Shown in pieces: positions 36,450 through 58,633 of a stretch of 64,000 bases of DNA. The stretch comes from Paludibaculum fermentans (GTDB lineage Bacteria; Acidobacteriota; Terriglobia; Bryobacterales; Bryobacteraceae). Made by a program: the position numbers and the translations under genes. Position 1 is the stretch's first letter; the number at the start of each line of letters is the position of its first letter. The DNA lies in assembly GCF_015277775.1 (NCBI RefSeq), contig NZ_CP063849.1, positions 1,612,001 through 1,676,000 on the forward strand, read 5' to 3'. The notes under the pieces are model-generated. The model was not told the DNA's origin. It made no database searches and was given only the letters and a program-made list of their open reading frames with translations.

Positions 36450-37002
36450 GTGGTTGCTCCTTGGCGGAAGTTGTACTCCATAAGAGAAAGCGATTCTGGG
36501 GGCTGCGGCTGTAAGCGATTGGATGGAAAGCGAAGATAAATCCCGAGCGGCGGGCAATGAAGCTCGCTTAATGCTGGAATTGGGGGAGAAGTGGGGTAAG
36601 TGGAGGTAGATTCGCCTGGGCGAGGGTTGCCTTTGGAAGGCCGGGATTGGCCTTGGCCGGGCGTTGCCCTGCGACGTATTTGGAGATGGCCGGCGTGGCG
36701 GGCGATGCTGAGGACTGCTGGGGCGATGGTGAGAAAGTTGGGGACAGTTGCACCCGTCCCAAAGGGGTTTTCCTTGTGCTGATTGCAGACTCTCAGGTAC
36801 TTTTTGTGGGATATGGCGCAGAGTTCGGCCTTCTGAGCGGATTGGGGGTGCCGTCGTGGGCTCGGCGACTGGCGGAGCAGTGGAAATGCGGAGGAGATCT
36901 GGCGTCGTTCAGCGAGTTCCCGAGTGATTTGCCCCAACCGGAGGCAGGGTTTTGCTGATTCGCGGTGGGACGGGTCAGGCTGTCGACGGCTCCGTCGACG
37001 GC
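36450..37002. other. Non-coding stretch of the island
   Basis: No supported gene, although one minus-strand frame remains open by chance. It contains an inverted motif GGGAC...GTCCC (36741-36760), a 12-bp tandem direct repeat GTCGACGGCTCC (36983-37006) directly at the breakpoint of the IS fragment, and a segment near 36572 that resembles one near 35365 (GGAATTGGGGGA). This is consistent with rearranged, decaying DNA. Confidence 0.5.
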
Positions 37003-37337
37003 TCCTGCGCAACCGCTCGGTCAACCGTTCGTTTTCGCGCAGGAGCCGCTGCACCTCCTTGGTGGAGGAGTCGATCCGCGGTTTGGGCCCGCGAGTTCGA
37101 GGGGTGAGACCTTGGGTAATGCCTGCGTTTCGTTCCCGACGCCAATTGGTGAGGTGAGACGAGTAGAGGCCTTCCCTGCGCAGGAGCGCGCCGATGCTTC
37201 CACTGTCGGTGGCAGCGTCGGCCTCGGCCAGAATCTTCCGTTTGTAGGCAGCCGGGAAGCTGCGGCGTTTGGCGCGCGGTCTCACCTCGGGGTTGGCGTG
37301 GCGTTCGGCGCCGGCCTTGGGGGCCGCTACACTGCGC

Positions 37338-39295
37338 GTCGAGTAGGCACGGCAGGTTGCCCCGCCGCGCCTCTCACAGAACCGGACTTGCGGGTCTCGC
37401 ATCCGGCTCTTTGGATCAATGTGTCACCATGCCAGACTGAGCTGGCTGGGAACTTGCGGTAGAGGATTGGCCACGCGCCAGCGGTCGTACAGCGACCCGA
37501 TCTGACCGTGAAACCAATCGTTGGGGTATGCCTTGGTCATCCCCCGCCGGTTGCTACGAGACCAGACACCTTGCCGGTAATAGGCAACTCCGGCAGCTTG
37601 CCCGGAGCTGGCGCCTCGTTTCACCAAGTGCCGGTACAGAAAGCGAGGCCGCTTCTTCTGGCAGATCACGATAGCCCGCAACCTGCGGCGTGCGTGCGCG
37701 TCATACCGTCGAAACTCGTCCGCTCCTGCTCGGGTACAAATCCGGAAATAGGCGATCCAGCCCTGGAAATATTTGTTCAGTCCTTCCATGCAGGCCCGCA
37801 GCGAGCTACCCCAGCGCCTTGGAGTCAACTCCAAGATCCTAGCGTTGAGCTTCGCCTTCGTCTTGGCCGATATCAGCACCTCGACATTCGGGCCCCCGTC
37901 CGTCCCAAACCGAAAACCCAGGAAATGAACCTTCTCCGGTTGAGTCACAGAACTCTTCGCCTCGTTGATCTGAAGCCGCAACCGGTTCTCCAGATACCGA
38001 CGCGTCGAAGCCATGACCCTTTCTCCGGCTCGTTGGCTCCGCACGAAGATATTGCAGTCATCGGCGTAGCGCACAAACCGGAGCCCACGGCGCTCCAACT
38101 CCCAGTCCCATTCGTCCAGGACGATGTTGGACAGTAGTGGAGATAGAGGACCCCCTTGCGGAGTGCCCTCCTCCGTGGAAACCTTTGTGCCGTCCGGCAA
38201 CACCACCTTCGCTTTCAGCATCCGCCGCACCAGGTTGAGAATCCGGACGTCGCCCACCTGCTGCCCCAAACGGTTGAGCAAGCGTTGATGATGGACTCGA
38301 TCGAAAAATTTCGATAAATCCAAATCGACCACGACCCGGTACCCTTCCCCCAAATACTGCTTCGCCTCTGCAATGGCGGTGTGAGCACCCCGCTTCGCGC
38401 GGAATCCGTGACTGCTGTGATGAAACCGTGGCTCGAAGATCGGCTCCAGAACCTGGAGTACGGCCTGTTGAACCCACCGGTCCACCACATTCGGAATACC
38501 CAAGCCGCGCTCGCCTCCGCCCGGTTTCGGGATCCATACCCGTCGGATATCACCCGGTCGATACGTTCCGTCGAGAAGAGACTTCTGCAACTCAGGCAGC
38601 AGAGCCGGGGCCTCATCGACCACCTGCTCCACACTCCGCCCGTCTACGCCGGGCGCACCCTTGTTTCGCAACACATTCAGCAACGCCTGCGCCAGATTGC
38701 TCGCCGACGCCACCGCCTCCATCAGCCGCCCTTCGGCGGCCGTGCAAGTGGCAGGTTCCATCCGGCCGCTACCCTTCGCTGTGTGCACCAAGAATCGCTT
38801 CCCATAGGACTCGTCCTGCGGGCCGCGAGCCTTGTCCCCTTGCGGGCTATCGGCGAACACGAAGGCCAACTGCCGTTGTTCTGCGCTTTTCAATCCATCT
38901 CCCCCTTGGCTCTACTGGCTTTCACCAGCTTCATCGCTACTACGAGGAGATCCGACTTCTCCCTGGGCATCGGACGGTCGTTCTCAATACCTTCCGCCCT
39001 ACCGCTTTCGCGGTCCCAAAGAGATCTCTTGGAGTAAGAACAATCAATGTCCTGCCGCTCCCATCCCCCACACCGTCCTGACACCGGTTGAATATAGGGC
39101 GTCGCGTTTCCGAGCACGCTTGCCTCCACCAGGCCGGCCTCACGGGGCTTCACTTTCGTTTGGTGCTGCAGTTCGCCTCCGACTTCTTCCCCACGCGCCC
39201 TCGCGGTGCCGCGCAGTTGCCCTTGGCTCACAGTTGCCTCCAACAGGCCCTGTAGGGGACTTGCACCCCCAATCGATCGTTCATGTCCAACACAC
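37338..39295 (-). mobile_element. Group II intron, 1958 nt, with reverse transcriptase ORF
   Basis: On the minus strand the 5' end GTGTG (39295-39291) fits the GUGYG consensus. Domain V is at 37379-37409 (GAGCC...GGTTC hairpin with the AGC triad), domain VI follows with a GGGGCAACC apical part and the probable branch A in CCTACTC, and the 3' end is ...CTCGAC (AC at 37339-37338). A maturase ORF occupies domain IV. Exact ends are supported by restoration of the orfA frame on excision. Intronic structure upstream of the ORF (GGGGGTGCAAGTCCCC hairpin, GGTGTGGGGGATGGGAGCGG) is typical of domain I. Pairing EBS/IBS could not be folded by hand. Confidence 0.85.
37424..38893 (-). CDS. ltrA: Group II intron reverse transcriptase/maturase
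   Basis: 489 residues. Reverse transcriptase blocks in order: GAPGVDGRSVEQ, RVWIPKPGGGERGLGIPNVVDRWVQQA, VVVDLDLSKFFDRVHH, GTPQGGPLSPLLSNIVLDEWD, and the catalytic FVRYADDCNIFV (YADD 276-279). Then the maturase X/GIIM region (KTKAKLNARILELTPRRWGSSLRACMEGLNKYFQGWIAYF). The C-terminus is basic and lacks the HNH endonuclease cysteines, so retrohoming would rely on nicked or single-stranded targets. Required for splicing and mobility of the surrounding intron. The frame is intact, so the intron may be active. Confidence 0.95.
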   Translation of the reverse strand: MKSAEQRQLAFVFADSPQGDKARGPQDESYGKRFLVHTAKGSGRMEPATCTAAEGRLMEAVASASNLAQALLNVLRNKGAPGVDGRSVEQVVDEAPALLPELQKSLLDGTYRPGDIRRVWIPKPGGGERGLGIPNVVDRWVQQAVLQVLEPIFEPRFHHSSHGFRAKRGAHTAIAEAKQYLGEGYRVVVDLDLSKFFDRVHHQRLLNRLGQQVGDVRILNLVRRMLKAKVVLPDGTKVSTEEGTPQGGPLSPLLSNIVLDEWDWELERRGLRFVRYADDCNIFVRSQRAGERVMASTRRYLENRLRLQINEAKSSVTQPEKVHFLGFRFGTDGGPNVEVLISAKTKAKLNARILELTPRRWGSSLRACMEGLNKYFQGWIAYFRICTRAGADEFRRYDAHARRRLRAIVICQKKRPRFLYRHLVKRGASSGQAAGVAYYRQGVWSRSNRRGMTKAYPNDWFHGQIGSLYDRWRVANPLPQVPSQLSLAW

Positions 39296-42724: not shown

Positions 42725-45007
42725 TCAGACCCTGCCGGCGAGATCGGTCACTTGCGCAACGCCCTGGACCGCGGAGGCCAGTTTAGCCGGCCCCTCCGCC
42801 AGGGGCGGAGCAACACCCGTGCCTTCCGGGCGTGCGGCGACTATCCGTTCTCCTGCCGAGCGGATGAGTTCATTGGTCATCTCGGGCGTCTGGCACTGTC
42901 CCCAAAGATGCAGGGTGCGGCGCAACTCCTCGAACGCGATGGGTTTGCTCAGATAGTCGTTCATGCCCGCCGCCAGGCAGGCGGTTCTATCTTCATTGGT
43001 CGCGGCGGCGGTCAGCGCCACCACGGGCACGCAGGATTGAGCGGAAGGCATCTTCCTGATTCTTCTGGTCGCTTCCAGGCCGTCCACCGACGGCATGTGC
43101 ACATCCATCAAGACGATGTCGTATGAGTTTGCCTCCACCCGGCTCACCGCGGCCCTGCCGTCACTGGCGAAATCAGCGTGGCACCCCAGCTTCTGCAGCA
43201 TCCGCAGGATGACCATCTGATTCACCATGTTGTCTTCGGCCACGAGGATCTTCAGTGCTTTGAGGTGGCCGCTGTCGTCCGGTTGTACCGGTTTCCTGGC
43301 CGCCTCAGCGATCCCGACGGAGATGGTGAACTCGAAGGTCGCACCTTCTCCAGGCCGGCTCTCCACATGGATCTCCCCGCCCATCATCTCGACGAGACTC
43401 TTGGAGATAGCCAGGCCCAGCCCAGTACCGCCATAGCACCGGCTGATGGAGGCATCCACCTGGCTGAAAGAGTGGAACAGGCGATCCAGCCGGTCCTCGG
43501 CGATCCCGATGCCCGTGTCCTTCACGGTAACGCGGATCAACTGCCGGCCCTCCATCGGCCCCGGACCCTCCAGAACAGCCTCCATCCGGATTGAGCCGCT
43601 GTGTGTGAACTTCACCGCGTTGCTCATCAGATTGGCCGTGACCTGGCGCAACCTTGTCGCATCGCCCAACACGACCGCCGGCAGCGATTCATCCAGGCGC
43701 AGTGAGTATTTGAGATTCTTCTCCTCGGCGCCTTTGCGGAACAGTTCAAAGCTCCAATCCAGGCAACCCCGGATGTCGAAGGGCTCCTCCTCCAGTTCCA
43801 GCCGCCCGGACTCGATCTTGCTGAAGTCGAGCACATCGTCGAGTACGCGCCGCAGCACCTCGCCCGAGGTGCGAATGAGTCCCATCATCGGGCGCAGATC
43901 GTCGGCATTGGGCTCTTCCTCCAGCAGGAAACTCAGCCCCAGAATGCCGTTGAGCGGGGTACGGATTTCGTGGCTCATGTTGGCCAGGAACTCGCTTTTG
44001 GCCCTGGCGGCCGCATCGGCGCCCTGGCGCGCCCGTACCAGTTCCTCCTCCATCCTTTTGCGTTCGCTGATGTCGAGCACGAAGCACAGCGAGTAGCCCA
44101 CGCCCGCAATGACAACCCGCCTCGCCCACAGCAAGCCCGTTCGATGGCCCAGAAGAGGATTGATGTAAGTCAGCTCACGCGAGTCGATATCGCGCCCTTC
44201 GGCCAACTTTGCGCGGATATCCTCGTATTCCGCGGGATCCTTCAACCACTCGAGATCCATCGCGCGCCGGCCAATGAAGCGCGACTTCCCAATGCCGACC
44301 AGCTCCTCCATGGCGCGGTTCACATCCACGTAGCAGCCTGATAGGTCGGATAGCGTGATGCCGATCGGACTGGATTCGAAGACCGTGCGAAAAGCCACTT
44401 CAGCCGCGGCTTTTTCCTCCAGCTGACGCTGGATGCGATCGTTGGCGTCTCGCAATTCAGCCGTGCGCCGCGCCACCATCAGGTCCAGGTCCTCCAACCG
44501 GGCTTGCGCCTGGCGGCTCACCAACCATTTGCGGGTGAGCGCATGCGCCAACTGGATCACTTCAATATTGTCGAAGGGCTTCTTCAGAATGAGGAGATTC
44601 TCAGACTGCCCCAAGTGACGCTGGATCTCATTCCAGGAGTAATCGGAGTAGGCCGTGCAGACAACAACCTGCAGGCTGGGGTAGGCGTGCCAAAGATGAG
44701 TGATGGTTTCGACACCATCCCAGCCGGGCGGCATACGGACATCCACAAACGCGAGTGCGTAAGGACGGCCCTCGGCCAGCGACTGTTCCAGCTTCCGCAA
44801 CCCCTGCTGTCCCTGAAACGCCGAGTCGATCTCAAACCGCGTCAGCGGGACCGGGTCAGCCCCGAACAGAATACTCTCATCCTCCTGGAGATTCTCCTGC
44901 GCCTCGATCTCACCCAGCAGGATCTTCTTCAGATCGTCGTGAATCGCCCTGTTGTCGTCAATAACCAGAATCCTGTGATTCGGCTCCAAAAGACCTGCTG
45001 TTGTCAT
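42725..45007 (-). CDS. Hybrid sensor histidine kinase (REC-PAS-HisKA-HATPase-REC)
   Basis: 760 residues, no membrane segment. N-terminal receiver (Asp89 in FVDVRMPPGWDG), a PAS domain at ~205-315 with its PAC tail (FRTVFESSPIGITLSD), then HisKA with His346 in LANMSHEIRTPLNG, HATPase (VTANLMSNAVKF, GGTGLGLAISKSL), and a C-terminal receiver with Asp635 in LMDVHMP. Such kinases sit at the centre of a multistep phosphorelay. Last gene of the seven-gene operon; its ATG overlaps the membrane kinase stop by 4 nt. No DNA-binding regulator follows; the phosphate may pass to a distant histidine phosphotransfer protein. Confidence 0.92.
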   Translation of the reverse strand: MTTAGLLEPNHRILVIDDNRAIHDDLKKILLGEIEAQENLQEDESILFGADPVPLTRFEIDSAFQGQQGLRKLEQSLAEGRPYALAFVDVRMPPGWDGVETITHLWHAYPSLQVVVCTAYSDYSWNEIQRHLGQSENLLILKKPFDNIEVIQLAHALTRKWLVSRQAQARLEDLDLMVARRTAELRDANDRIQRQLEEKAAAEVAFRTVFESSPIGITLSDLSGCYVDVNRAMEELVGIGKSRFIGRRAMDLEWLKDPAEYEDIRAKLAEGRDIDSRELTYINPLLGHRTGLLWARRVVIAGVGYSLCFVLDISERKRMEEELVRARQGADAAARAKSEFLANMSHEIRTPLNGILGLSFLLEEEPNADDLRPMMGLIRTSGEVLRRVLDDVLDFSKIESGRLELEEEPFDIRGCLDWSFELFRKGAEEKNLKYSLRLDESLPAVVLGDATRLRQVTANLMSNAVKFTHSGSIRMEAVLEGPGPMEGRQLIRVTVKDTGIGIAEDRLDRLFHSFSQVDASISRCYGGTGLGLAISKSLVEMMGGEIHVESRPGEGATFEFTISVGIAEAARKPVQPDDSGHLKALKILVAEDNMVNQMVILRMLQKLGCHADFASDGRAAVSRVEANSYDIVLMDVHMPSVDGLEATRRIRKMPSAQSCVPVVALTAAATNEDRTACLAAGMNDYLSKPIAFEELRRTLHLWGQCQTPEMTNELIRSAGERIVAARPEGTGVAPPLAEGPAKLASAVQGVAQVTDLAGRV

Positions 45008-47205
45008 GTCAGCATCCCCTTCATGTCGTCGGCGAGCTTCATCGGAAGTTCCAGCGTAAAGGTCGCGCCCTTGCCCGGCCCGTCACTCTCGGCTCTCAAC
45101 GATCCGCCCATTTCACTGGCCGCCAGTGCGCACGAATGCAAGCCAAAACCATGGCCATCCGCCTTGGTTGTAAACCCATGTCCGAAGATGCGGGTGAGGT
45201 TCTCAGCGGGTAGCCCGGCACCGTTGTCCTGCACGCTGAGAATGATGCGCCGCTCCCCTTTGCGCCTCACACAGACCCGGATCGTCTTGCCATCCGCAAC
45301 GTCGACCTCCTTGAGAGCCTGTTTAGCGTTGCGCAGGAGATTCAGCAGGATCTGCAGGATCTTGTGCTTCTCCGCGGCGATCTCAGGAACTGTCTCGAAA
45401 TCCCGCTCCACCTTAATACCGTGACGGCCAAACCCCGGATCCAGGATCCGAATCGCGTCGTCCAGCATCTCGGAAAGCTTGACGTTCTCCACCAGCCCGG
45501 AGACTTTGGCATAACTCTGTTGAGTGGCTACAATCTGTTTGATGTGGCCGACATGCGAGCTCAACATCTCCAGTTCCTGCAGGATTCCATCCCGCTCCGA
45601 CTTGAAGTGCCCGCCGAGTTTGACCAGGTACGGCAGCACTCGCTGTCCTTTCGGATCACTGGCCAGGAAGCTCGAAACATCAGTGGAGTGCTGTTCCAGC
45701 ATGCCGATGAGCGCCACAAGGTTGTCGACCCGCGATTCGCGGATCTTACCCGCGACCAGCGAGGTGGACACATTCACGCTATTCAGCACATTGCCTACGT
45801 TGTGGAGAACCCCCGTGGCGATTTCGGCCATGCCTGCCTCGCGCGATAACTCCATCAAGCGCTGTTGTGCGGCGGCCAGTTCCGAGTGCGCCCGGTCCTT
45901 GGCCGCAATCTGCTCCTGCAGTTCCCTGGTGCGTTCAATCACACGCTGCTCCAGGGTCTGCTTGGCGTCGATGAGGGCTGTCCGGACGCGGTGCCTGGCG
46001 ATGGCGGCGCCCAGCATGTCAGCCACAGCCCGCAGGCTGTCCTTCTCGGCCTCGCCCCACTCCCGCGTCTGCTCGAAATCGTCGATGCAGACCACGCCCC
46101 ACCATTCCCCGGCGACCACCACCGGCACCAGAATGGCCGACTGGATGCGCTGATCCAATTGATCCCGGAAAGCGGCCGGCAGACTGGACGGGATCACGGT
46201 GACAATGCGGCCCTCCCGGAAGGAGTCGATCCAGGGTTGCGCGTCCGGGCCGGACCAGTCGAAAGCTTCCCAGCCTTCCTGCCGTGCGGCGCCGCCCGCG
46301 GCAACCCACTCTTTCCGCAGAACCGCGCGAATTGCCTCATCGTGGTGGAAGATCCGCACAACCGCGGCCCGGCTCGTTCCGGCGGCCTGCCCTACCCTCT
46401 CCAGGACCTTCCCAATAATGGTGTCGCCATCGCCGTCCGTGAGAAACTCTTTCGCGGCGAAGCTGACGCTATCCAGAATCTGGTTGCGGGCCAGAATCGT
46501 GCGGGCCATGTCGTTAAAGGCGCCCGCCAGACGCTGGATTTCGTCCCGGCTGCGTACGTCGGCCCGTGCCCGCAAATCGCCCTGCGCCACCTTCTCCACG
46601 GCGGCGTGCAAGATCTGAATCGGCCGCACCAGGTGGGCCGCGTACACGAGGGAGATCAGCAGGCTGAGGCACCCGCAAAGCACCGCCAGCCCGGCCGTTC
46701 GCGTGTATGTGCGCCGGACGCTCTGGTCATAGGAGTCCAGTGACAGGCCAACATGGATCCAGCCCCATTGAATGCCGCTATAGTCAAACGGGAACGCATA
46801 CTGGAACACACGCCGGCCGAACAGCGGCACCACTCCGATGGAACTGGCCGGGATGCGCGCCGCGGGGCGCCACGTCTCGCCCAGTTTGTCGATCTTCCAG
46901 GTGGAGCGGTCCACTACGATGGAGAAACCATCGTTCTTCGTGACGACTACGTAGTCGATTGCCGTGTCGCCGGAGAGTACCTGCATCGCCTGATCGACGA
47001 CCGAAGAGTAGTCCTCCGATACCGCCGCGCCCGCCGCGACACCTCGAATCGAAACAGCTACGCCCCTCGCCTTCGATTCCAAGCCCAACTCGAATTCACG
47101 CTTCTGTTCCGGCACGATCACCATTACAAAGACCGCAAGCGTCACGAGGGTCACCAACCAACCCAGCAGTGTGATGCGAAGCGTGATGCCCTTGGGCATG
47201 TGCAT
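45004..47205 (-). CDS. Membrane histidine kinase with periplasmic sensor, HAMP and GAF
   Basis: 733 residues. TM1 (about 10-30) and TM2 (about 163-185) bracket a ~130-residue periplasmic sensor domain; then a HAMP linker (AAHLVRPIQILHAAVEKVAQGD), a GAF domain (~255-415, ending GVVCIDDFEQTREWGEAEKDSLRAVADMLG), a coiled coil, an unusual phospho-acceptor region with His468 in ATGVLHNVGNVLNS, and an HATPase (LLRNAKQAL, DNGAGLPAENL, HGFGLHSCALAASEMGG). It is preceded by GGAGG and lies 4 nt below a PhnD-like gene. Its periplasmic domain is a natural docking partner for the co-encoded binding proteins. Confidence 0.9.
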   Translation of the reverse strand: MHMPKGITLRITLLGWLVTLVTLAVFVMVIVPEQKREFELGLESKARGVAVSIRGVAAGAAVSEDYSSVVDQAMQVLSGDTAIDYVVVTKNDGFSIVVDRSTWKIDKLGETWRPAARIPASSIGVVPLFGRRVFQYAFPFDYSGIQWGWIHVGLSLDSYDQSVRRTYTRTAGLAVLCGCLSLLISLVYAAHLVRPIQILHAAVEKVAQGDLRARADVRSRDEIQRLAGAFNDMARTILARNQILDSVSFAAKEFLTDGDGDTIIGKVLERVGQAAGTSRAAVVRIFHHDEAIRAVLRKEWVAAGGAARQEGWEAFDWSGPDAQPWIDSFREGRIVTVIPSSLPAAFRDQLDQRIQSAILVPVVVAGEWWGVVCIDDFEQTREWGEAEKDSLRAVADMLGAAIARHRVRTALIDAKQTLEQRVIERTRELQEQIAAKDRAHSELAAAQQRLMELSREAGMAEIATGVLHNVGNVLNSVNVSTSLVAGKIRESRVDNLVALIGMLEQHSTDVSSFLASDPKGQRVLPYLVKLGGHFKSERDGILQELEMLSSHVGHIKQIVATQQSYAKVSGLVENVKLSEMLDDAIRILDPGFGRHGIKVERDFETVPEIAAEKHKILQILLNLLRNAKQALKEVDVADGKTIRVCVRRKGERRIILSVQDNGAGLPAENLTRIFGHGFTTKADGHGFGLHSCALAASEMGGSLRAESDGPGKGATFTLELPMKLADDMKGMLT

Positions 47206-47209: not shown

Positions 47210-48250
47210 TTAGTTCCTCCCCTTCCCGCGATCCGGCAACCCGCTCTCGACGACGGGGACCGGTGGGGGCATTCGAACCGTTGATGCGCCTGGCAGGCGG
47301 TAGTACTCTTTCCAGAGGTCTCTAACAGGATCCAGGTCGCTGGCCTGAAGCCGCAGAATCCGATCGGTCTTGAAGACCATCAGCAACTGGCGGTGACGGA
47401 CGTCCTCATTCAGGGACAGAATGGCGTCGAGGAGTTCCGCGTGATACGGGTGAGGCTCCACCGGCATGGCGATCACGCTCTCCACCATTGGTCGCGAACG
47501 CACCAGCACTTTGAGCCGGGACAGCTGCGGATTCATCTCCTTGGCCAGATTGAGATTCACCTCGTCCACGACGCAGGCATCCACCGTGCCGAAGAACAGG
47601 GGCAAGATACACGTCTGCGCTTTGGCCGCTTCCTTGATCGAGCCGAAGAACGTACTGGCGCGCCCTAGCCTCTCCCGGTTGAGGAGGACATCCGTCCACG
47701 CCAGAGCTGTGTTCGATCCCCCTCGCGACGAGACGAGAATGTTCTTTCCACGCAGGCCGGCGATGGAGGCGAGGTTGCTGTCCGGATTCACGAGCAGAAC
47801 ATACGGATACGCCGCGCCGCCGCTCGAGTTCAGGGCCAGTGTGAGGATCGGCACCATGAGGTGGCTGCTCTCCAGTTCCAGATACTCGGCAATCCCGGGG
47901 ATGATCACATCCACCGATTTCTCCTGCAGGCGTGCTTTCAGACTGGAGATGTTGTCGATGATGTCCACCCGGCAATCCAGCAGGAAGCCCCTTTGCCGGC
48001 CCACTGTTTCAAACCAGAGTCTCAGGGCCGCACGGATGTCGTTCGGGTTCACGTTGTTCAGCATTCTGTTGCTGGCGACGACGTTCAAATGGGTGCGGCG
48101 AAGGCCTCGCCCGTCCGGGCTGTCGGCGCCCGCCGAAGACGCGGTCTGGGCCATGGACAGTTGAAGGGAAAGCAGCACGGCGAGCATCCACCAGCGCGAT
48201 AGCGCGTGCAGAAAATGGACAACGCTCTTCCTGTGGCAGGGCCTGCGCAT
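47210..48250 (-). CDS. PhnD-like periplasmic substrate-binding protein (copy 1)
   Basis: 346 residues. A Sec-type signal anchor (WWMLAVLLSLQLSMAQ) at about 20-35, then a type II periplasmic binding fold of the phosphate/phosphonate group: LNNVNPNDIRAALRLWFETV, a hinge region, and the family-typical LPLFFGTVDACVVDEVNLNLAKEMNPQL that resembles the PhnD ligand-cleft loop. There is no lipobox and no ABC permease or ATPase nearby, unlike a transport operon. Abuts the previous copy (TAAATG) and lies 4 nt above the membrane kinase. The C-terminus (PPPVPVVESGLPDRGKGRN) is proline-rich. Confidence 0.85.
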   Translation of the reverse strand: MRRPCHRKSVVHFLHALSRWWMLAVLLSLQLSMAQTASSAGADSPDGRGLRRTHLNVVASNRMLNNVNPNDIRAALRLWFETVGRQRGFLLDCRVDIIDNISSLKARLQEKSVDVIIPGIAEYLELESSHLMVPILTLALNSSGGAAYPYVLLVNPDSNLASIAGLRGKNILVSSRGGSNTALAWTDVLLNRERLGRASTFFGSIKEAAKAQTCILPLFFGTVDACVVDEVNLNLAKEMNPQLSRLKVLVRSRPMVESVIAMPVEPHPYHAELLDAILSLNEDVRHRQLLMVFKTDRILRLQASDLDPVRDLWKEYYRLPGASTVRMPPPVPVVESGLPDRGKGRN

Positions 48251-49228
48251 TTAGGGATGGCCCTTTCCCGCCGCGTCTTCCAGCCTGACCAGCGCCGGTC
48301 CCAATCCGGAGGAGGATGCCTCCACGATGTGGCGGTACTTATTGCGCAGCACCCGAACCGATTCGAACTGCGCTTTACTGGCGCGGACCAGCGGCCCAAT
48401 CCTGAAGACAATGCCTAACTGCTCACCCGCCGGGGTCTTGTGCAGGTTCAGCAGCGACGCGACCAACTCGTCCTGGTGCGGGTGCGGCTGCAGGGGCATC
48501 GCCACCACGCCCTCCAGGTAAGGTTCAGAGCGGGCAACAACGCGGAGCCGTCCCAATTGCGGATTGAGCTCCTTCATCGCCTCCCAGTTGCCCGAATCGA
48601 CCACACACGCGTCGATTCTGCGGAAGAACAAAGGCATTACGCACTGCGAGGAGCGATAGTTGATTTCCACGCTGCTGAAGAAGGCGCCAGCCCTGCCCAG
48701 GCGGCTATCCCCCAGCAGCGTCTCCAGCCACATCAGTCCCAGGTTCGATTTGGTGCGGGAGGAGATGACAACGCGCTTCTGGCGAAGGCCAGGGAGAGTC
48801 ACCGCTCCGGAGGAGTCGTTGGTCAGCAGCAAATACTGATACACCGCGAGTTGCCCTCTTTCGGTGCCGGCAAACACGGCGTCGAGAAGGTTCGTTTCAG
48901 AAAGGACCAGGTAGTCAGGCGTATCCAGCACCAGCAAATCCACCATGTGGTCCTTCAAACTCTGGCGCATCTGTGGAATGGACAGTGCGATCGCCACCTT
49001 GGCATCCAACTGGAAGCCACGCAGTTTTCCCAGTTGCTCCGACCAGACCTTCATCGAAGCGATAGCGTCAGCCTGGTTGACAGTGGCGAACACCGATTCG
49101 CTGGCCGAAACCCGCAGATAAGTGCGGGTCAGACCCGCTGCGCCGGTCCCGTCGCCCGCACACATACGCACGTTCATCCCTGGCAAGGCGACGACGAGGA
49201 GGAGCAGTGACTTCTGGCGCAGTGTCAT
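48251..49228 (-). CDS. PhnD-like periplasmic substrate-binding protein (copy 2)
   Basis: 325 residues, Sec signal LLLLVVALPGMNVRMCAG followed by the same two-lobe binding fold. Signature segments match the other copies in order: ATVNQADAIASMKVW, LLVLDTPDYLVL and MPLFFRRIDACVVDSGNWEAMKELNPQL. Length and all motifs are retained, so the gene looks functional. It is less similar to copies 3 and 4 than those are to each other, fitting an old tandem duplication. Gap of 3 nt to the upstream copy and 0 nt to the downstream copy imply one transcript. Confidence 0.83.
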   Translation of the reverse strand: MTLRQKSLLLLVVALPGMNVRMCAGDGTGAAGLTRTYLRVSASESVFATVNQADAIASMKVWSEQLGKLRGFQLDAKVAIALSIPQMRQSLKDHMVDLLVLDTPDYLVLSETNLLDAVFAGTERGQLAVYQYLLLTNDSSGAVTLPGLRQKRVVISSRTKSNLGLMWLETLLGDSRLGRAGAFFSSVEINYRSSQCVMPLFFRRIDACVVDSGNWEAMKELNPQLGRLRVVARSEPYLEGVVAMPLQPHPHQDELVASLLNLHKTPAGEQLGIVFRIGPLVRASKAQFESVRVLRNKYRHIVEASSSGLGPALVRLEDAAGKGHP

Positions 49229-49231
49229 GGA

Positions 49232-50191
49232 TCACCCCTTCCTGGCCGCCGAACCCCGCTGCGCGCGCACCCGGTCTGCCGCATCCAGAATGGCCAAGGC
49301 AGAAGTCAGGCAGCCTGCGTCCCGGAGGGTCAATTCATCGAACTGGAAAAGCGTCGCCAGTTGCTGGCCAGCCGTCGTGTTCCGCAGACCGGAGATCGCT
49401 TTTATGACCTTCTGCCGGTTCAACCCCTGATAGTTCTTGCGGAAGATATAGAAACTCAACACCATCTGAGGAGAACTGGCGATCACCCTCAAGTCGCGCG
49501 CCACCTGTGGATTCAACTCGCACATCGTCTCGAACCCGCGCTTGGATGTCAGGCAGGCATCGGACTGACCGAAGAAGACCGGCAGCACAACCCGTGAGAA
49601 CTTTGCATCCACCGACATGGACGAGAAAAACTGGTCAGCGGGACCTCGATGCCCCTCCTCCAGCATCGTGGCCAGCCAGTCCGCGGCAAGGCACATCCGC
49701 GGCGATTTCAGTGTGCAGAAGCGCTTGCCCTTCAAGTCGCTCAACTGCCGGAAGCCGCCGCCCTTCTTCACCAGAATCAAATACTGTTCAAGCCCGGCCG
49801 GCCCGCCAGCGGCCACGATTTGGGTGGAGTCCAGCAGGTCAGCGATCTGACGGTACTCGAGAATATTCAGCGCGACCGCATCCAGGTCGCCGTGATGCAT
49901 CCTGTCGTAGATTTCCTGGGTGGTTGAGAAAAGCTTCGGATCGATCAGGACATTCAGTTCCTTGGTGATGAGCGAGATCCACACCTTCATCGCGGCCCGG
50001 GCGTCGTTCAGATTGACGTCACCCACGACGCTCTCGGAAAGAGCCAGCCGCACGGGTACGCCATCCTGGGACAGCGCGAGTACGCCCGAAAAGGTTGGGT
50101 TTGCGCCCAGCGCCAGCGAAATGGCCCGGCGGCGCGAAAGCCGTTCGATCCAACCGCCCGCCGAGTCTGTCCTATAGTCCGGCTTCGACAT
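49232..50191 (-). CDS. PhnD-like periplasmic substrate-binding protein (copy 3)
   Basis: About 319 residues from the ATG at 50191, which has AGGA upstream; a longer in-frame start is not used. The leader carries RRR (SRRRAISLALG) before a short hydrophobic segment, a possible twin-arginine signal rather than the Sec signals of copies 1 and 2. Conserved segments: DVNLNDARAAMKVW, VALNILEYRQIADLL, KRFCTLKSPRMCLAADWL, LPVFFGQSDACLTSKRGFETMCELNPQ. Close to copy 4 over most of its length. Third of four tandem copies. Confidence 0.83.
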   Translation of the reverse strand: MSKPDYRTDSAGGWIERLSRRRAISLALGANPTFSGVLALSQDGVPVRLALSESVVGDVNLNDARAAMKVWISLITKELNVLIDPKLFSTTQEIYDRMHHGDLDAVALNILEYRQIADLLDSTQIVAAGGPAGLEQYLILVKKGGGFRQLSDLKGKRFCTLKSPRMCLAADWLATMLEEGHRGPADQFFSSMSVDAKFSRVVLPVFFGQSDACLTSKRGFETMCELNPQVARDLRVIASSPQMVLSFYIFRKNYQGLNRQKVIKAISGLRNTTAGQQLATLFQFDELTLRDAGCLTSALAILDAADRVRAQRGSAARKG

Positions 50192-50199
50192 ATTGCGTC

Positions 50200-51168
50200 C
50201 TACAGCGAGGCGCCTTTCCGCCCGGCAACGCCGTGGCGATTCCGAATCCGGTCCGCGGCGTCCAGCAAACTGAGTGCGCTGGCAAAACAACTGGCATCCC
50301 GCAGCGTCAGCTCCTCGAACTGGAACAAAATCGCGATCTGCCGCCCCGCGACGGTCGAGCGCAATCCAGATAGCGCCTTGACGAACCGGTCCCGGTAGAC
50401 CGACTGATAGTTTTTACGGAAGACATAGCCGTTGACGACCATGCTGGGCGAGGCAGCAATGGTTCTCAGCTCCTTCGCAACCTGGGGATTCAGTTCGCAC
50501 ATGGAATCGAAGCCGCGCCGCGTTGCCACACATGCATCCGCCTGCCCAAAGAAAACGGGTAGAACCACGCGTCCGACCTTGCTGTCGCTGCCCACCGTCG
50601 CGAAGAACTTGTCCCATGGCCCGGAATAGCCGCCGTCCAGGATGGTGGAGAGCCAGGCGGGAGCGACGCACATCCGCGGATTCTTGAGCATCATCAACCG
50701 GGCGCCCCGCAGGTCGAGCGGTTTCTGGAAACTACTGTTGTTCTTCACGAGAATGAGATACTGCTCAGGCCCGACGGAGCCACCCTCGGCGACCACCTGG
50801 CTGGCGTCCAGGTTATCGGCGACCTGGCGATACTCGAGGACATTCAACGCCACGGCATCCAGCAACCCCTTGCGAGCCCGGCTGAGAATCTCCTGAGTCG
50901 GGTCAAAGGCCTTGGCGTTGTAGTCCACCACAATGTTCATCTCTTGCGCGAGCCGCTTCACCCAGATCGACATCGCGGCGCTGGCGTCATTCGTATTCAC
51001 GTCTGTCACCAGACTCTCCGAGACCGCGAGCCGCAGCGGGGCCACGGGCTCGGCAGCAGCAGGCATCGCAGGCGCAGCCGCTCCGCTCACCAGAAGAGCC
51101 AGCGCCTGGCGGCGCGAACACATTCCGTGCCAGGCCTCGCTCATCGATCGTGGTGAATGGTGTGTCAT
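50200..51168 (-). CDS. PhnD-like periplasmic substrate-binding protein (copy 4)
   Basis: About 322 residues; the ATG at 51168 is chosen over a TTG at 51180. The leader CSRRQALALLVSGAAAPA again has a twin-arginine character. Matching segments: DVNTNDASAAMSIWVKRL, VALNVLEYRQVADNL, ARLMMLKNPRMCVAPAWL, LPVFFGQADACVATRRGFDSMCELNPQVA. Nearest paralogue is copy 3, suggesting a recent duplication within the array. It follows the TolC-like gene within 8 nt (20 nt from the chosen start). Confidence 0.84.
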   Translation of the reverse strand: MTHHSPRSMSEAWHGMCSRRQALALLVSGAAAPAMPAAAEPVAPLRLAVSESLVTDVNTNDASAAMSIWVKRLAQEMNIVVDYNAKAFDPTQEILSRARKGLLDAVALNVLEYRQVADNLDASQVVAEGGSVGPEQYLILVKNNSSFQKPLDLRGARLMMLKNPRMCVAPAWLSTILDGGYSGPWDKFFATVGSDSKVGRVVLPVFFGQADACVATRRGFDSMCELNPQVAKELRTIAASPSMVVNGYVFRKNYQSVYRDRFVKALSGLRSTVAGRQIAILFQFEELTLRDASCFASALSLLDAADRIRNRHGVAGRKGASL

Positions 51169-51188: not shown

Positions 51189-52745
51189 CTAAGGCTTCGA
51201 CGTGATCCTCTCCCTGACTTCCTTGCCGATCACCACGGATAGCTGCGACTCAATCGCGACATGGTCATAGCGCGTCTTATAGAACTGAGCGCTCATCAGC
51301 GCCTCGAAGAGCTGAGCCCGGATCACCTTTTCCGTATCGACGAGTTCGTTCTGATAGGCCCGCGAGGTCAGTTCCCGGTTCTCGCGGGCCGCGACCATGG
51401 CGCGTTCCGCTGCCTGATAGGTCTTCGAGGCCGCCTCCAGGCTCAAAAACAGCTCGCGAACCTGCAGTCCGATGCCTTCGCGCAGCAGCAACTTCTCTTC
51501 CTTCAACTTCGCGACCCGCGCCAGCGCCTCGCTCACCCTGTTCTTCGTCAGGAAGCCGTCGAAGATCGGGATCTCCGCACCCGCGCCAATCGTCCAGCCC
51601 GTCTTGTTCCGGGTTGTGGCTGTACCCGTCGTGTAGTCGTTCCACCAGCGATGAACCTCACCGGTCAGTGCGATCTTCGGGTAGTAGCCGCTGCGCGCCG
51701 TAGACACGGCCCCGTCCAGGGCCTTGAGCCCGGCCTCAACCTTGGCCCAGTCCGGATTGAACTCATAGGCCGAGCTCACCAGTTCCGCCGCATTGCCCGC
51801 GAAGGGCCGGTGCGGCACCTCCTCGCTGGAGGGCACCACCGTGGCATCCCACGGCAAGCCCATGGTGTAGGCAAGCGCGGCTTGGGCCGCGGCTTCGTTC
51901 TTTGCCAGTTCGGCCACCGTGGACCGGATGGTCTCCACCATCACGACGTTGTCCAAATAGTCGGTCTTGTTCACCCGGCCCGCGCCGTTCTTGTACAGCG
52001 ACTCAGTCAACTCCAGCGTGACTTCCATGCGCGCCAGCGTGTCCTGCCCCAACTGATGCAACTGCCGGGCGAGTACCGCGCCGTAGTAGAGCCGGACGAC
52101 ACTATCGGTGAGCTCCAGGTCAGTGCGCCTCAGTTCCGCCTGCGCCGCCATCTTCCCGCCCAGGGCCTGCTGACGGTAGCCGCTGCGCATGCCGCCGTCG
52201 AAGAGCAGCCAGGTGAAGTTGCCTGTCGCGGTCACGCTCTGCGGATCCATCAACTTCACGTCCTGCTCAGGTACTGGAAACACCTGCGCATTGGTGGTGA
52301 TGCTCTGGCCAGGGAACGACACAGGCATCTGCACAGCTACCGGTGGGAATCCGGGACCAAACGCGTTGGCCGGAATGGTGACCGAAGTGGAACCGCCAGG
52401 CACCGTCACGGTCTGCGACGGAATGTACATATTGCTCGCCGGGAAGACGAAGTTCGGGGCTTCGTCCATCCGGAACCACCCGGCTTTTGCGTTCACCTGC
52501 GGCCAGTAACCGGCCAGGGCCTGCCTGTGCTGTGCCTCCGCTATCGCCACTGCAAAGCGTGACGCGGGCCGCCGGTGGTTCTTCTCGAACGTGATCCGGA
52601 GGCAGTCGTCCAGCGAAAGGACCTGCGGCGCGCTCGCTGACGTTGCGGGCGCGGGCGCCGCAGCCGGCTGAGCGGCGAGGCTCGTCATCCAAAGAGCGGT
52701 GGTGCTCAGAGAGACACAAAGAATCCGTACACAAGCATATGACAT
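51189..52745 (-). CDS. TolC family outer membrane protein
   Basis: 518 residues from the ATG at 52745 with signal peptide MSYACVRILCVSLSTTALWMTSLAAQ; the long in-frame upstream extension is not supported. Two repeated helical hairpin/beta halves typical of outer membrane efflux proteins: LDDCLRITFEKNHRR, LAGYWPQVNAKAGWF, LELTDSVVRLYYGAVLARQLHQL and a second set starting AAELVSSAYEFNPDWAKVEAGLKALDGAVSTARSGYYPKIALTGE, ending EYRQALKE-like helices. Normally docks with a periplasmic adaptor and inner-membrane pump, but no such partners are here. First gene of the operon with four PhnD-like proteins and two kinases. Confidence 0.9.
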   Translation of the reverse strand: MSYACVRILCVSLSTTALWMTSLAAQPAAAPAPATSASAPQVLSLDDCLRITFEKNHRRPASRFAVAIAEAQHRQALAGYWPQVNAKAGWFRMDEAPNFVFPASNMYIPSQTVTVPGGSTSVTIPANAFGPGFPPVAVQMPVSFPGQSITTNAQVFPVPEQDVKLMDPQSVTATGNFTWLLFDGGMRSGYRQQALGGKMAAQAELRRTDLELTDSVVRLYYGAVLARQLHQLGQDTLARMEVTLELTESLYKNGAGRVNKTDYLDNVVMVETIRSTVAELAKNEAAAQAALAYTMGLPWDATVVPSSEEVPHRPFAGNAAELVSSAYEFNPDWAKVEAGLKALDGAVSTARSGYYPKIALTGEVHRWWNDYTTGTATTRNKTGWTIGAGAEIPIFDGFLTKNRVSEALARVAKLKEEKLLLREGIGLQVRELFLSLEAASKTYQAAERAMVAARENRELTSRAYQNELVDTEKVIRAQLFEALMSAQFYKTRYDHVAIESQLSVVIGKEVRERITSKP

Positions 52746-54536: not shown

Positions 54537-55841
54537 CTACGCGATCTTCGGAACTTCGAAACCCTTGCGATACGGGCGCGTGAACATGGCGTTCGCCTCG
54601 GCGTCGCCTTTCACTTCACACTTCACCGGATCCACCGTCAGGCTGCGGCCCAGGCGGTAGCTGATGTTGGCCAGGTGCATGAGGGTAGCACTGAGGGCGC
54701 CTTCCTCGATCGGGCCATTCAGCTTCGAGTAATCGTTGGCACGCACCGCGTCAATGAAGTTGACCCAGTTCGAACCGCCCGCGCTCTTGGCCGGACCCGG
54801 CTCCGCTTCGCGGCCCAGGAAGGTCTTATACGAGGCGTAGCCCTCGATGGCCATGTAGCCCTTCGAGCCGTAAAAGACATTGCCGACCGTGTTGCTGTCC
54901 TTGCGCTTGCCGCCTTCGCCGATGCCCGCTTCGTGGTTCGACATCCAGTGCCGCACCTCGAACACCATCATCTTCGTCTTGCCTGCTTCGTTGAACTCGT
55001 AGGTAGCCGTGAGGACGTTCGGCGTCTCCTGGTCGTCGTCGAACATGAAGTGCCCGCCCATGGCATGCACCTTGGTGGGCAGCTTCACACCCAGCAGCCA
55101 GCGGCAGATATCCACTTCGTGGATGCCCTGGTTGCCGAAGTCGCCGTTGCCCGTATCCCAGAACCAATGCCAGTTGTAATGGAAGCGGTTCTTGGTGAAC
55201 TCACGCTTGGGCGCGGGGCCCAGCCAGAGGTCGTAATTCACACCGGCGGGCACCGGTTCCGGCTTCGCCCGGCCGATGGTATCGCGCCACTTGTAGCACA
55301 GGCCGCGGGCCATGTAGACATCACCGATCAGCCCGTCCTTGATCTGCTGTGCCGCCTCGCGCAGCCCTTCGGTGGAGCGTGCGTTCACGCCATGCTGCAC
55401 GATCTTGCCGTACTTCTTCGTGGCCGCCACAATCTGCTTCGACTCATAGATATTGTGCGAAGCGGGCTTCTCGACGTACACATGCTTGCCGGCCTGCAGC
55501 GCCCAGATGGTCTGCATCGTATGGTTGTGGTTGGGCGTGGCAATGGAGATCGCGTCGATAGACTTGTCTTCCAACAGCTTCCGCAGGTCGACATAGCGCT
55601 CAGGCTTCTTGCCGGTGACCGTCGAAACTTCACCCAGCCGCTTGTCGAGAATGCTCTCGTCGATATCGCAAAGCGCGGCGATTTCGACGTTCTTCATGCC
55701 TTCGTAAGCCTTGATGTGGCTGTTTCCCTGTCCTCGAAGACCCACGCACGCGATGCGGATTGTGTCGTTCGGGCTAGCCAGTGCGCTGGCCGTCAACGGG
55801 GCCGCGGCGGCTGCGCTCATCAGGAAGTGGCGGCGGTTCAT
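54537..55841 (-). CDS. Gfo/Idh/MocA family oxidoreductase with Tat signal
   Basis: 434 residues from the ATG at 55841, preceded by AAGGAGATC; in-frame extension to 56069 is rejected because it would read through the divergent leader. Twin-arginine leader MNRRHFLMSAAAAAPLTASALAS, Rossmann fold (IRIACVGLRGQGN), EKP motif (GKHVYVEKPASHN), and the C-terminal domain with GNQGIHEVDICRWLLG. A typical acidobacterial/planctomycete periplasmic sugar oxidoreductase of the same class as the one at 25271, but not closely similar. Convergent with the membrane protein gene (19 nt gap). Confidence 0.9.
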   Translation of the reverse strand: MNRRHFLMSAAAAAPLTASALASPNDTIRIACVGLRGQGNSHIKAYEGMKNVEIAALCDIDESILDKRLGEVSTVTGKKPERYVDLRKLLEDKSIDAISIATPNHNHTMQTIWALQAGKHVYVEKPASHNIYESKQIVAATKKYGKIVQHGVNARSTEGLREAAQQIKDGLIGDVYMARGLCYKWRDTIGRAKPEPVPAGVNYDLWLGPAPKREFTKNRFHYNWHWFWDTGNGDFGNQGIHEVDICRWLLGVKLPTKVHAMGGHFMFDDDQETPNVLTATYEFNEAGKTKMMVFEVRHWMSNHEAGIGEGGKRKDSNTVGNVFYGSKGYMAIEGYASYKTFLGREAEPGPAKSAGGSNWVNFIDAVRANDYSKLNGPIEEGALSATLMHLANISYRLGRSLTVDPVKCEVKGDAEANAMFTRPYRKGFEVPKIA

Positions 55842-55904
55842 CTGATCTCCTTTTCGGGCTGCCAATACTATATAACAGGATGGATGGATCCTGAGGTTAC
55901 TGAT

Positions 55905-56411
55905 ATGCCATTCAGTCATGACGAAGCCAAACTGATCGCTGGTTACACCCTCGCCAACTACGAGCGGGAAAGAAATACCACCAAATCCGTGATCGCGGCG
56001 ATCCCGGCCGGCCAGGAAGAGTACAAACCGCATGGCAACTGCATGGGCGCGCTCAAGTTGGCGTTCCACATCGTGGCCAGCGAGCGCTTTTTCCTGAACG
56101 GTGTGGCCAACGGCAAGTTCGGCCCTGGCGGAGAGATGCCGGAATCGATCAAGACGCCCGCCGACGTCATCGCCTGGTATGACGCCAATGTGCCTCCAGC
56201 GATCGATGAGGTGAAATCCCTGTCAGGCGAGTCGATCAGCCAGACCATCGACTTCTTCGGGATGATGCAGGCGCAGGCGATTTTTTATCTGACGCTGATG
56301 ACGAACCACTCCGTGCACCACCGCGGCCAACTGGCGGCCTATCTTCGCCCCATGGGCGCCAAGGTGCCCAGCATCTACGGCCCCAGCGGCGATGTCGGCG
56401 TGAATGGCTGA
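55905..56411 (+). CDS. DinB family protein
   Basis: 168 residues from the ATG at 55905, with GAGG eight bases upstream; an ATG at 55884 is an alternative. Four-helix bundle of the DinB/YfiT-like (DUF664-like) metal-binding fold: LIAGYTLANYERERNTTKSVIAAIP, a His in ALKLAFHIVASERFFL, and NHSVHHRGQLAAYLRPMGAKVPSIYG, in which the HHRGQ provides metal ligands. Members are often thiol-dependent enzymes or stress proteins of unclear substrate. It is convergent with the PAP2 gene and divergent from the Gfo/Idh gene 63 nt away. Confidence 0.88.
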   Translation: MPFSHDEAKLIAGYTLANYERERNTTKSVIAAIPAGQEEYKPHGNCMGALKLAFHIVASERFFLNGVANGKFGPGGEMPESIKTPADVIAWYDANVPPAIDEVKSLSGESISQTIDFFGMMQAQAIFYLTLMTNHSVHHRGQLAAYLRPMGAKVPSIYGPSGDVGVNG

Positions 56412-57880: not shown

Positions 57881-58633
57881 CTAACGCCGCATGGCCACCC
57901 GGAAATCGCCCACCTTGGGCATCCGGATTATCTTGCACATTTCAAACAGGCGGGACCGCGCCCGCATCCCGATCTTCTCCGCCAGCGTCGTCTTCACATC
58001 GAAGCGAGCGGGCGAACCCTCGGGCATGCGTTCAATCAACGTGCCGCCCATCTCGGCATCGGGCAGATTCGTGGTGGCGATGATCGGCTTGCGCTCATTG
58101 CAGCGGTAGGTGATGATCGACGTCACCGTATCTTCCACCCAATCCGTCACGCGGTGCGCGCCCAGGTCGTCCAGCAGGAGCACATCGCATTCCAGCGCCA
58201 TCTCGTAGGCTTCCCGGGGGCTCTCGCCCGACGACGGGTCGTAGCTGGCACGGATCCGTTGCAGCAGGTTCTGGTAGTCCACGAAAATTCCTTCGTGGCC
58301 CGATTCGATCAGCCGCTGCAGGACCGCCACGGCCAGGTGCGTCTTGCCGGTACCGGGTTCTCCGATGAACAGCAGGCCCGGAGGATCGACCGCCGGGAAC
58401 TCCTGGCAATACCGCGACAGCTGCAGTTGCATCATGCGCAGTTCCGAGGAGCCGCGATCTGAGAAGTTATCGAACCGGTCACCCAGGTAGTTGGCGGGGA
58501 TCCTCGCCCGCTTCCAAAGCGAGTCGGCGCGCGAATCCACCCGGCACTCACAGCGCTGCGCAGCGGTCAGGCCGTCCTTCTCCAGGATCTTCCAACCCAA
58601 GCCGCCGCAAATTGGACAGACTTCTTCCGCCAT
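57881..58633 (-). CDS. DnaC/DnaI-like primosomal ATPase with N-terminal zinc finger
   Basis: 250 residues. An N-terminal CxxC...CxC zinc finger (Cys6, 9, 28, 30), then an AAA+ core with Walker A GEPGTGKTH (91-99), Walker B VLLLDDLG (151-158), sensor 1 in PIIATTNL and an arginine-rich C-terminus. This architecture matches the helicase loader DnaI/DnaC group and the ATPase of related transposon-encoded proteins; the zinc finger and lack of an adjacent transposase point to a chromosomal replication factor. Single gene flanked by a hairpin on its 5' side. Confidence 0.87.
   Translation of the reverse strand: MAEEVCPICGGLGWKILEKDGLTAAQRCECRVDSRADSLWKRARIPANYLGDRFDNFSDRGSSELRMMQLQLSRYCQEFPAVDPPGLLFIGEPGTGKTHLAVAVLQRLIESGHEGIFVDYQNLLQRIRASYDPSSGESPREAYEMALECDVLLLDDLGAHRVTDWVEDTVTSIITYRCNERKPIIATTNLPDAEMGGTLIERMPEGSPARFDVKTTLAEKIGMRARSRLFEMCKIIRMPKVGDFRVAMRR

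Follow-up and report, generated by a model that had tools for sequence, protein, structure and literature searches.

What do four PhnD-like binding proteins, encoded side by side in Paludibaculum fermentans, do together, and why do two of them carry a different export signal from the other two? The genes lie within a window of 64,000 nucleotides (the whole stretch of DNA that was analysed), and every feature described here is on its reverse strand. Copy 1 (47210-48250) and copy 2 (48251-49228) have Sec-type leaders, and copy 3 (49232-50191) and copy 4 (50200-51168) have twin-arginine leaders. Upstream of them stands an outer-membrane factor of the TolC family, from a distinct subfamily (51189..52745; PF02321, E 8e-43, in two stretches that correspond to two OEP repeats), a protein of 518 aa when read from the ATG at 52745; its listed ORF begins at a TTG at 53024. 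Downstream follow HK1 (45004..47205), a receptor kinase with the order TM, periplasmic domain, TM, HAMP, GAF and HATPase by Pfam and TM peaks, and HK2 (42725..45007), a hybrid kinase (REC, PAS, HisKA, HATPase, REC by Pfam) which by its coordinates starts inside the HK1 stop, with an overlap of 4 bases. Our main reading, to which we give a probability of about 0.6, is that the four copies are periplasmic ligand receptors, exported by Tat (3/4) or by Sec (1/2), that would feed one kinase.

All four copies fall in the Pfam family PF12974, with 64, 58, 65 and 43 bits for copies 1 to 4, above the curated cutoff of 27. The structure models of copy 1 (m154a00cea43d) and copy 3 (m614e2a2f4b73) have a mean pLDDT of 86.0 and 91.7. 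The earlier note on this DNA had placed copies 3 and 4 in one group and copies 1 and 2 in another, and both groups are recovered. Identity over the mature proteins is 160/272 (59%) for copies 3 and 4, 100/271 (37%) for copies 1 and 2, and 22-27% across the pairs. The tree of 98 rows, built without the weak relatives L121-L125 and four partial sequences, puts copies 1 and 2 in clade A and copies 3 and 4 in clade B, the latter two together within a single clade of 9 rows (100/100). L059, which holds only partial binding proteins on a suspected chimeric contig, was excluded from both trees and from the later pools. Copy 3 is closer to L037_2 (99/97) than to copy 4, and the 3/4 duplication is therefore not recent at the species level. 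One recent and one old duplication had been supposed; the order stands, with 3/4 after 1/2, and the recency of 3/4 falls away because related genera share both splits. Both duplications are older than had been proposed. The binding-protein family is sparse across the phyla searched with the A2 profile, which found it in 4/297 genomes of the same phylum (3 of these weak, 6e-16 to 5e-20), 6/288 of the phylum of L047, 4/247 of the phylum of L052 (3 of these weak) and 1/81 of the Synergistaceae.

The two pairs also differ in their leaders. Those of copy 3 (...RLSRRRAISLALG...) and copy 4 (...MCSRRQALALLVSG...) match the twin-arginine consensus ahead of a moderately hydrophobic core, with the motif scan placing the SRRRAI codons of copy 3 at 50120..50137 and the SRRQAL codons of copy 4 at 51100..51117; in copies 1 and 2 the hydrophobic core is not directly preceded by an RR. 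The maximal 13-residue Kyte-Doolittle mean of the core is 1.96 and 2.29 in copies 1 and 2, versus 1.12 and 1.82 in copies 3 and 4. Downstream of the RR, copy 3 has no ATG, GTG or TTG until the mature domain is reached, so that every start that still gives a leader includes the RR. Across relatives, we applied a strict consensus rule, [ST]RRxΦΦ, which supersedes a looser first rule. It is matched by 19/29 acidobacterial copy-3/4-type proteins, 0/16 of the copy-1/2 type and 0/53 others (0/43 and 0/10 outside both acidobacterial clades); Fisher's test of 19/29 against the 0/69 other rows gives 2e-13, with rows that are related by descent. The looser scan, under other rules, gave a weaker contrast (17/29 versus 2/16, 3/10 and 7/43). 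Besides the start Met, the RR pair forms the only leader columns at least 90% conserved among the 29 acidobacterial copy-3/4-type proteins, and the h-region of the RR group is weaker than that of acidobacterial clade A (1.60 versus 2.10, p 8e-4). The genome contains one tatC. The proposed division into Tat-like leaders for copies 3/4 and Sec-like leaders for copies 1/2 is thus borne out by the strict motif and by core hydrophobicity, and the split is conserved in acidobacterial relatives.

Sec can also use RR leaders, and all four copies might be Sec substrates, with the RR of copies 3/4 serving as no more than a basic n-region. The general Tat models of Pfam and NCBIfam are in keeping with this, being near-silent on 29 clade-B and 26 clade-A leaders; TAT_signal (E 0.073) and formate_TAT (E 0.019) each matched 1/29 clade-B leaders. 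Sec signals in all four copies are nevertheless not what the motif rule finds, as it marks copies 3 and 4 as twin-arginine. By eye, the RR is present in 26/29 clade-B leaders that are otherwise highly divergent (it is missing from L069_2, L071_1 and L072_1). Shuffling the leaders of the same 29 proteins gives an expectation of 0.24 strict motifs, against 19 seen, and the paralogues of the same operons lack the motif. With the very weakly hydrophobic core of copy 3 added, export of all four by Sec seems improbable to us.

If copies 3 and 4 do travel by Tat, the reason could be that they acquire a metal or another cofactor while still in the cytoplasm; the earlier note had thought them perhaps cofactor-bound. 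Copies 3 and 4 are richer in cysteine (5 and 4 residues) than copies 1 and 2 (3 and 2). A periplasmic binding protein that is exported by Tat is also known: IdiA/FutA of Trichodesmium, described in an excerpt of PMC6254336 as an iron importer that binds Fe3+. The present operon differs from that precedent in combining Tat-type with Sec-type paralogues. However, the distinguishing cysteines are poorly conserved within the Tat-type clade, being kept at three columns by 16, 11 and 15 of 29 members. The single near-invariant cysteine is also found in copies 1/2 (24/26 clade-A rows), and no metal motif was recognised in the alignment. Relatives beyond the two acidobacterial clades have the same core and the strict RR in none of the 43 and 10 rows. 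We found no evidence for the cofactor, and regard it as an unlikely explanation.

Our main reading, receptors that feed one kinase, draws on the gene context. A dedicated TolC, a sensor domain that is conserved and a module that recurs as a whole are its main features, which the earlier note had missed. The module, found under seven phylum labels, runs from the TolC-type channel through 1-6 PhnD-like binding proteins to a HAMP-linked kinase with a Cache-like domain, and usually on to a hybrid kinase. Clade B copies stand next to TolC and clade A copies next to the kinase, both in the window and in 19/20 loci that hold both clades. Of 39 loci with 600 bp or more of upstream sequence, 29 have TolC next to the binding-protein array or inside it. 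Among 200 family genomes, 13 have the binding proteins, the same 13 have the TolC subfamily (A7 profile), and 12 of the 13 have the HK1-type sensor domain (hypergeometric 2e-18, with kinship ignored).

The HK1 sensor module (46630..47205) consists of a Cache-like domain between TM peaks at residues 13-31 and about 171-190. A single-pass phmmer search with HK1 residues 1-192 matched 31/104 ORFs at E 2e-122 to 4e-27. With a duplicate set aside, these come from 30 different loci, each of which contributes a single ORF. This search is cited in place of an iterated profile, whose E-values are inflated by construction. The 31-row alignment has a mean column identity of 58%, conserved across phyla. 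sCache_3_2 matches the domain of the window weakly (26.8 bits; curated cutoff 28.4) and 19/31 members at E up to 0.1. The output half varies, with a GGDEF end in place of the kinase in L117, HisKA-HATPase-REC-REC-Hpt in L045 and L046, and HisKA_2 in L056 and L120. The TolC subfamily is 53-61% identical to the TolC of the window in most rows outside close kin. The binding proteins are less conserved than the channel and the sensor domain. The output half of the kinase can be swapped, even for GGDEF.

The arrangement has exceptions. L040, L113, L114 and L118 have strong binding proteins and neither TolC nor sensor domain next door, the gene order of L115 is broken, and L119 has a sensor-like ORF more than 5 kb upstream, detected by the iterated profile only. 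Flanking proteins of several loci gave no consistent ligand clue, and the scanned neighbours of L118 and L119 had no Pfam match. L113 alone carries an ArsP_1 permease together with a pyridine-nucleotide-disulfide oxidoreductase/rhodanese protein.

The same context bears on two other functions. The copies could be shuttles or adaptors that pass a compound through the periplasm to the TolC-type channel for efflux, with the kinases adjusting the process. The dedicated TolC subfamily accompanies the binding proteins more faithfully than any other partner does (13/13 genomes) and is highly conserved across phyla, and in one genome the ArsP_1 permease of L113 is flanked by three binding proteins. 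Against this, the sensor-domain partner is almost equally faithful, no adaptor or pump family is a recurrent neighbour in the 36 loci compared, and the arrays of L113 and L114 have no adjoining TolC. Efflux is thus a possibility that we hold to be rather unlikely, although it is the strongest of the competing readings. The copies could also be orphan PhnD/PtxB-type receptors for an ABC importer encoded elsewhere, with uptake regulated by the kinase. Their fold and PF12974 membership are typical of ABC binding proteins, and several binding proteins for a single transporter is a known arrangement. Yet no ABC permease or ATPase family occurs in the seven cluster and ten flanking ORFs of the window, and an all-against-all comparison of ORFs from 36 loci found no recurring ABC-type neighbour, only binding proteins, TolC, kinases or response-regulator proteins, and antisense shadow ORFs. 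The NCBIfam cutoffs for PhnD, the phosphite/phosphonate subfamily and SsuA are missed by far, and the binding proteins are strictly paired with a receptor kinase. Uptake is accordingly given a low probability, below that of efflux.

Known systems show what is shared and what differs. The best fold kin in the PDB are the signalling binding proteins AioX/ArrX, tied with PtxB. According to an excerpt of PMC5908839, the arsenic-sensing XSR systems (AioX/ArrX/ArxX with AioS/AioR) likewise have a separate PhnD-like periplasmic gene beside a histidine kinase. The present locus differs in its several binding proteins per kinase, of two ancient types and two export routes, in its dedicated TolC, and in its hybrid kinase where the AioX systems have an AioR-type regulator. 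No X-S-R cluster with a DNA-binding response regulator was found; the kinase is present, and HK2 carries only REC, PAS, HisKA and HATPase by Pfam, with no DNA-binding output domain. The ten flanking ORFs of the window include no arsenic enzyme. The AioX/ArrX/ArxX pocket given in the same excerpt comprises Tyr88, Cys106, Tyr131, Ser161, Ser163, His192 and Asp210. We compared it by profile alignment with a chain offset of 38 set by hand, in which Tyr88 and Cys106 precede the aligned stretch. Of the aligned positions, Ser161 and Asp210 are retained by most of clade A, unlike Tyr131, Ser163 and His192; copies 3/4 have substitutions at Ser161, Ser163 and Asp210 too. The aligned pocket residues are thus mostly not kept, and membership of this subfamily is not supported.

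The TtrS/ThsS kinases, in an excerpt of PMC5408782, also use a PF12974-type domain as a two-component input, fused to the kinase, whereas here a free periplasmic set accompanies a kinase with its own Cache-like domain. The ORFs of the window are separate, and a PF12974-HisKA-HATPase fusion was set aside. The phosphonate and phosphite ABC binding proteins PhnD/PtxB share the fold and the Pfam family; unlike them, the four copies adjoin a receptor kinase and no transporter genes among the ORFs scanned. Identity as PhnD receptors was also rejected, as copies 1 to 4 score 30, none, 30 and 16 bits with TIGR03431 (cutoff 261 bits).

Our proposal of several receptors on one kinase builds on the export motifs, two ancient clades, gene order, co-inheritance and a sensor domain conserved beside an exchangeable output. 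Tat would carry copies 3/4 across the inner membrane already folded, and Sec would carry copies 1/2 unfolded. Each binding protein, once loaded with ligand, would dock on the same Cache-like domain of HK1 and move HAMP, and several inputs would therefore converge on one kinase, from which phosphate would then pass to HK2. A wider version, which we offer tentatively and at clearly less than even odds, makes the whole an envelope-spanning cassette with a dedicated TolC channel, interchangeable receptors split between Tat and Sec, and one Cache-HAMP receptor with exchangeable output; ligands would pass through the channel or be monitored at it, and each kinase would read them through combinations of its 1-6 receptors.

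We found no description of a module of PhnD-like proteins, TolC and kinase in the literature searched, which comprised open-licence papers only, nor a ligand or function for this design, which combines several receptors with one kinase and a dedicated outer-membrane channel and occurs under seven phylum labels. The gene set, inherited as a package in a soil bacterium, suggests an unstudied route by which one receptor could take in several chemical signals. Within a single operon, closely related receptors have apparently settled on different export routes, so that the reason for Tat use is testable with matched controls. The channel itself belongs to the same OEP family as TolC, OprM and SilC, and its profile matches SilC, OprM and TolC. 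Unlike these, it is a distinct, module-tied subfamily with no pump or adaptor beside it (flanks and 36 loci), and compared with SilC it has about 75 profile positions versus about 13 between the matched stretches, which corresponds to an insert of ~60 residues.

Seven closely spaced genes, all on the minus strand, run from a TolC-like channel (51189-52745; Pfam OEP) through four PhnD-like binding proteins, namely copy 4 (50200-51168), copy 3 (49232-50191), copy 2 (48251-49228) and copy 1 (47210-48250), to the receptor kinase HK1 (45004-47205; Pfam HAMP, GAF, HATPase) and the hybrid kinase HK2 (42725-45007; Pfam REC-PAS-HisKA-HATPase-REC). By coordinates, the gaps from the channel to HK1 are, in gene order, 20, 8, 3, 0 and 4 bases, and the two kinases share a 4-base overlap. 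All four copies exceed the Pfam cutoff for PF12974 and, together with one weak sub-cutoff match, are the only such proteins in the entire 9.53 Mb genome. In the most likely reading, receptors predicted to be exported by Tat or by Sec would bind different ligands and signal to one Cache-HAMP domain, and the signal would be relayed by HK1 and HK2; the channel could serve ligand entry, ligand export, or be retained at the site for another reason.

The copies form two pairs, as the earlier note had proposed, with 59% identity between copies 3 and 4 and 37% between copies 1 and 2, versus 22-27% across pairs. The same grouping is seen in a maximum-likelihood tree of 98 full-length relatives, window copies included, with which a smaller 74-row tree agrees. 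In the larger tree, the 29 acidobacterial rows of copy-3/4 type group as clade B (support 96/82), and the 26 rows of copy-1/2 type, among them members from Verrucomicrobiota and Thermodesulfobacteriota, as clade A (95/88); the deepest split is weakly supported there (87/50), and receives 98/99 in the 74-row tree. Copies 3 and 4 lie within one 9-row clade (100/100), copy 3 being placed next to a Sulfopaludibacter gene (99/97), while copies 1 and 2 lie within a 14-row clade (100/96), each with its own orthologues in related genera. One recent and one old duplication had been suggested; the 3/4 duplication is indeed the younger, but both predate the genus, since both pairs are placed beside genes of related genera.

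The twin-arginine-like leaders claimed for copies 3 and 4 are borne out: SRRRAI (copy 3) and SRRQAL (copy 4) precede the hydrophobic core, and no such motif occurs in copies 1 and 2. Under a strict definition, in which [ST]RRx is followed by two mainly hydrophobic residues and lies 14 or more residues ahead of the mature start, the motif is present in 19/29 acidobacterial clade-B leaders, 0/16 acidobacterial clade A, 0/10 other clade A and 0/43 others, where shuffled leaders would give 0.24, 0.11, 0.11 and 0.31. In the same groups, a looser consensus finds 23, 0, 1 and 3, and another rule, built differently, 17, 2, 3 and 7; general Tat models match at most one of the 29 clade-B leaders. The only columns at least 90% conserved in the clade-B leader alignment are two arginines and the start methionine, the arginine pair being kept, by eye, in 26/29 (missing from L069_2, L071_1 and L072_1). 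The hydrophobic cores of the 19 strict-motif leaders are weaker, at 1.60, than those of acidobacterial clade A, at 2.10 (p 8e-4, a value that overstates independence because the rows share descent). The simplest reading is that Tat export was gained in the acidobacterial clade-B ancestor, as the strict motif was not seen outside Acidobacteriota among the 98 leaders scanned, and then lost in some lines; the state of the strict motif requires a minimum of 7 changes on the tree. The genome has one tatC. Copies 3 and 4 probably have to fold in the cytoplasm, for reasons that their sequence does not reveal; the bound cofactor once suggested is possible but unsupported. Elsewhere in the window, an internal start in a GFO/IDH/MocA oxidoreductase ORF (54537-56069) gives the leader MNRRHFLMSAAAAAPLTASALA, which we take to be a textbook Tat pattern.

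The layout was compared across 41 loci, some of them partial, that have strong members; several loci belong to the same genome (for example L112-L114, and L058 with L118-L120). Where 600 bp or more is available upstream (39 loci), the channel gene directly precedes the binding-protein array in 29, counting one in which it lies within the array. Copy number ranges from 1 to 6. Of the 20 loci holding both types, 19 place clade B towards TolC and clade A towards the kinase (exception L115); at L042 clade B, and at L071 clade A, is represented only by a gene fragment. By record title and taxonomy line, the module occurs in Acidobacteriota, Verrucomicrobiota, Thermodesulfobacteriota, Synergistota, Bacteroidota and Nitrospirota, and in one MAG labelled Clostridia. 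At L042 (7202-8833; contig shared with L064), the TolC ORF continues into the last ~65 positions of a clade-B protein; this is a deletion scar, with the channel fused to a remnant and one clade-A copy left. At L113 (7869-11901) there are three binding proteins, two of them separated by an ArsP_1 permease, with a pyridine-nucleotide-disulfide oxidoreductase/rhodanese protein nearby, neighbours that hint at sulfur or arsenic in the ligand.

One set of 200 family genomes, a sample like all our genome surveys, was searched for the binding proteins, the TolC subfamily and the HK1 sensor domain. The binding proteins are present in 13, and the TolC subfamily (E 1e-30) in exactly those 13. The P. fermentans genome holds 65 OEP stretches but one member of this subfamily. 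The sensor domain is found, in single copy, in 12 of the 13; the other is G125, where the assembly is fragmented and the arrays reach contig ends. Within the genus, 2/9 listed genomes carry the module. That the genes are adjacent and inherited together demonstrates partnership rather than mechanism. In genome G065, an orphan clade-A gene (L040/L065; L040:8857-9945) has no adjoining TolC or kinase, and the module lies on another contig; since this gene coexists with a sensor domain elsewhere in the genome, the binding proteins may act in trans.

A single-pass search with HK1 residues 1-192 matched 31/104 pooled ORFs, with E from 2e-122 to 4e-27; these represent 30 distinct loci. Mean column identity in the sensor-domain alignment, relatives and window together, is 58%, versus 42% and 51% in two binding-protein alignments. 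Its profile has no PDB match at E up to 0.1, and its Pfam sCache_3_2 match is slightly below cutoff. The outputs after HAMP vary, from GAF-HATPase in the window to HisKA-HATPase-REC-REC-Hpt (L045, L046), HisKA_2 (L056, L120) and PAS-GGDEF (L117). It is mainly because a fixed periplasmic domain with exchangeable outputs adjoins the binding proteins that we call them its receptors. At L117 (8095-10805), a binding protein is directly followed by this domain joined to HAMP-PAS-GGDEF, and that module may drive cyclic-di-GMP.

AlphaFold models of copy 3 (mean pLDDT 91.7) and copy 1 (86.0) best match ArrX, AioX and PtxB (Foldseek E ~1e-18 to 1e-15). VIA-align gives, for copy 3, Z 21.4, rmsd 3.3 over 248 residues with PtxB and Z 20.2, rmsd 5.0 over 252 with ArrX, and for copy 1, Z 23.1, rmsd 4.4 over 251 with ArrX. 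The AioX pocket includes Tyr131, Ser161, Ser163, His192 and Asp210 (PMC5908839); by alignment, these residues are for the most part not retained in the module. Most clade-A proteins retain Ser161 and Asp210 but not His192, Tyr131 or Ser163, and copies 3 and 4 have Ser161, Ser163 and Asp210 substituted. The family shows a near-invariant signature of its own, FF...AC...E-L/M-N-P-Q, with the second F and the N in 98/98. On these grounds, the ligand is not safely predictable from AioX or PhnD.

The TolC alignment is conserved to a degree similar to the sensor domain, with a mean column identity of 50%; leaving close kin aside, most rows share 53-61% with the window channel, and the three most distant share 35-41%. 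Compared with SilC, the module channels carry ~60 extra residues between two matched stretches, where SilC has ~13, and in the window channel and members of the subfamily profile A7 this stretch is conserved and proline-rich (IPxQxVxVPGG...PVSFPGQ...VPEQDIKLMD). From TolC topology, it presumably sits at the first outer-facing hairpin. That the channel serves efflux seems to us unlikely.

In the remaining window, a stretch at 34001-36000 has a GC skew of +0.24 over 2 kb, a value far from that of the rest of the window, and the ORF at 34916-35956 has no Pfam match. A weak transposase-like ORF (36149-37402), a group II intron reverse transcriptase/maturase (37424-38893; RVT_1 and GIIM) and an IstB-like ATPase (57881-58633) are also present.
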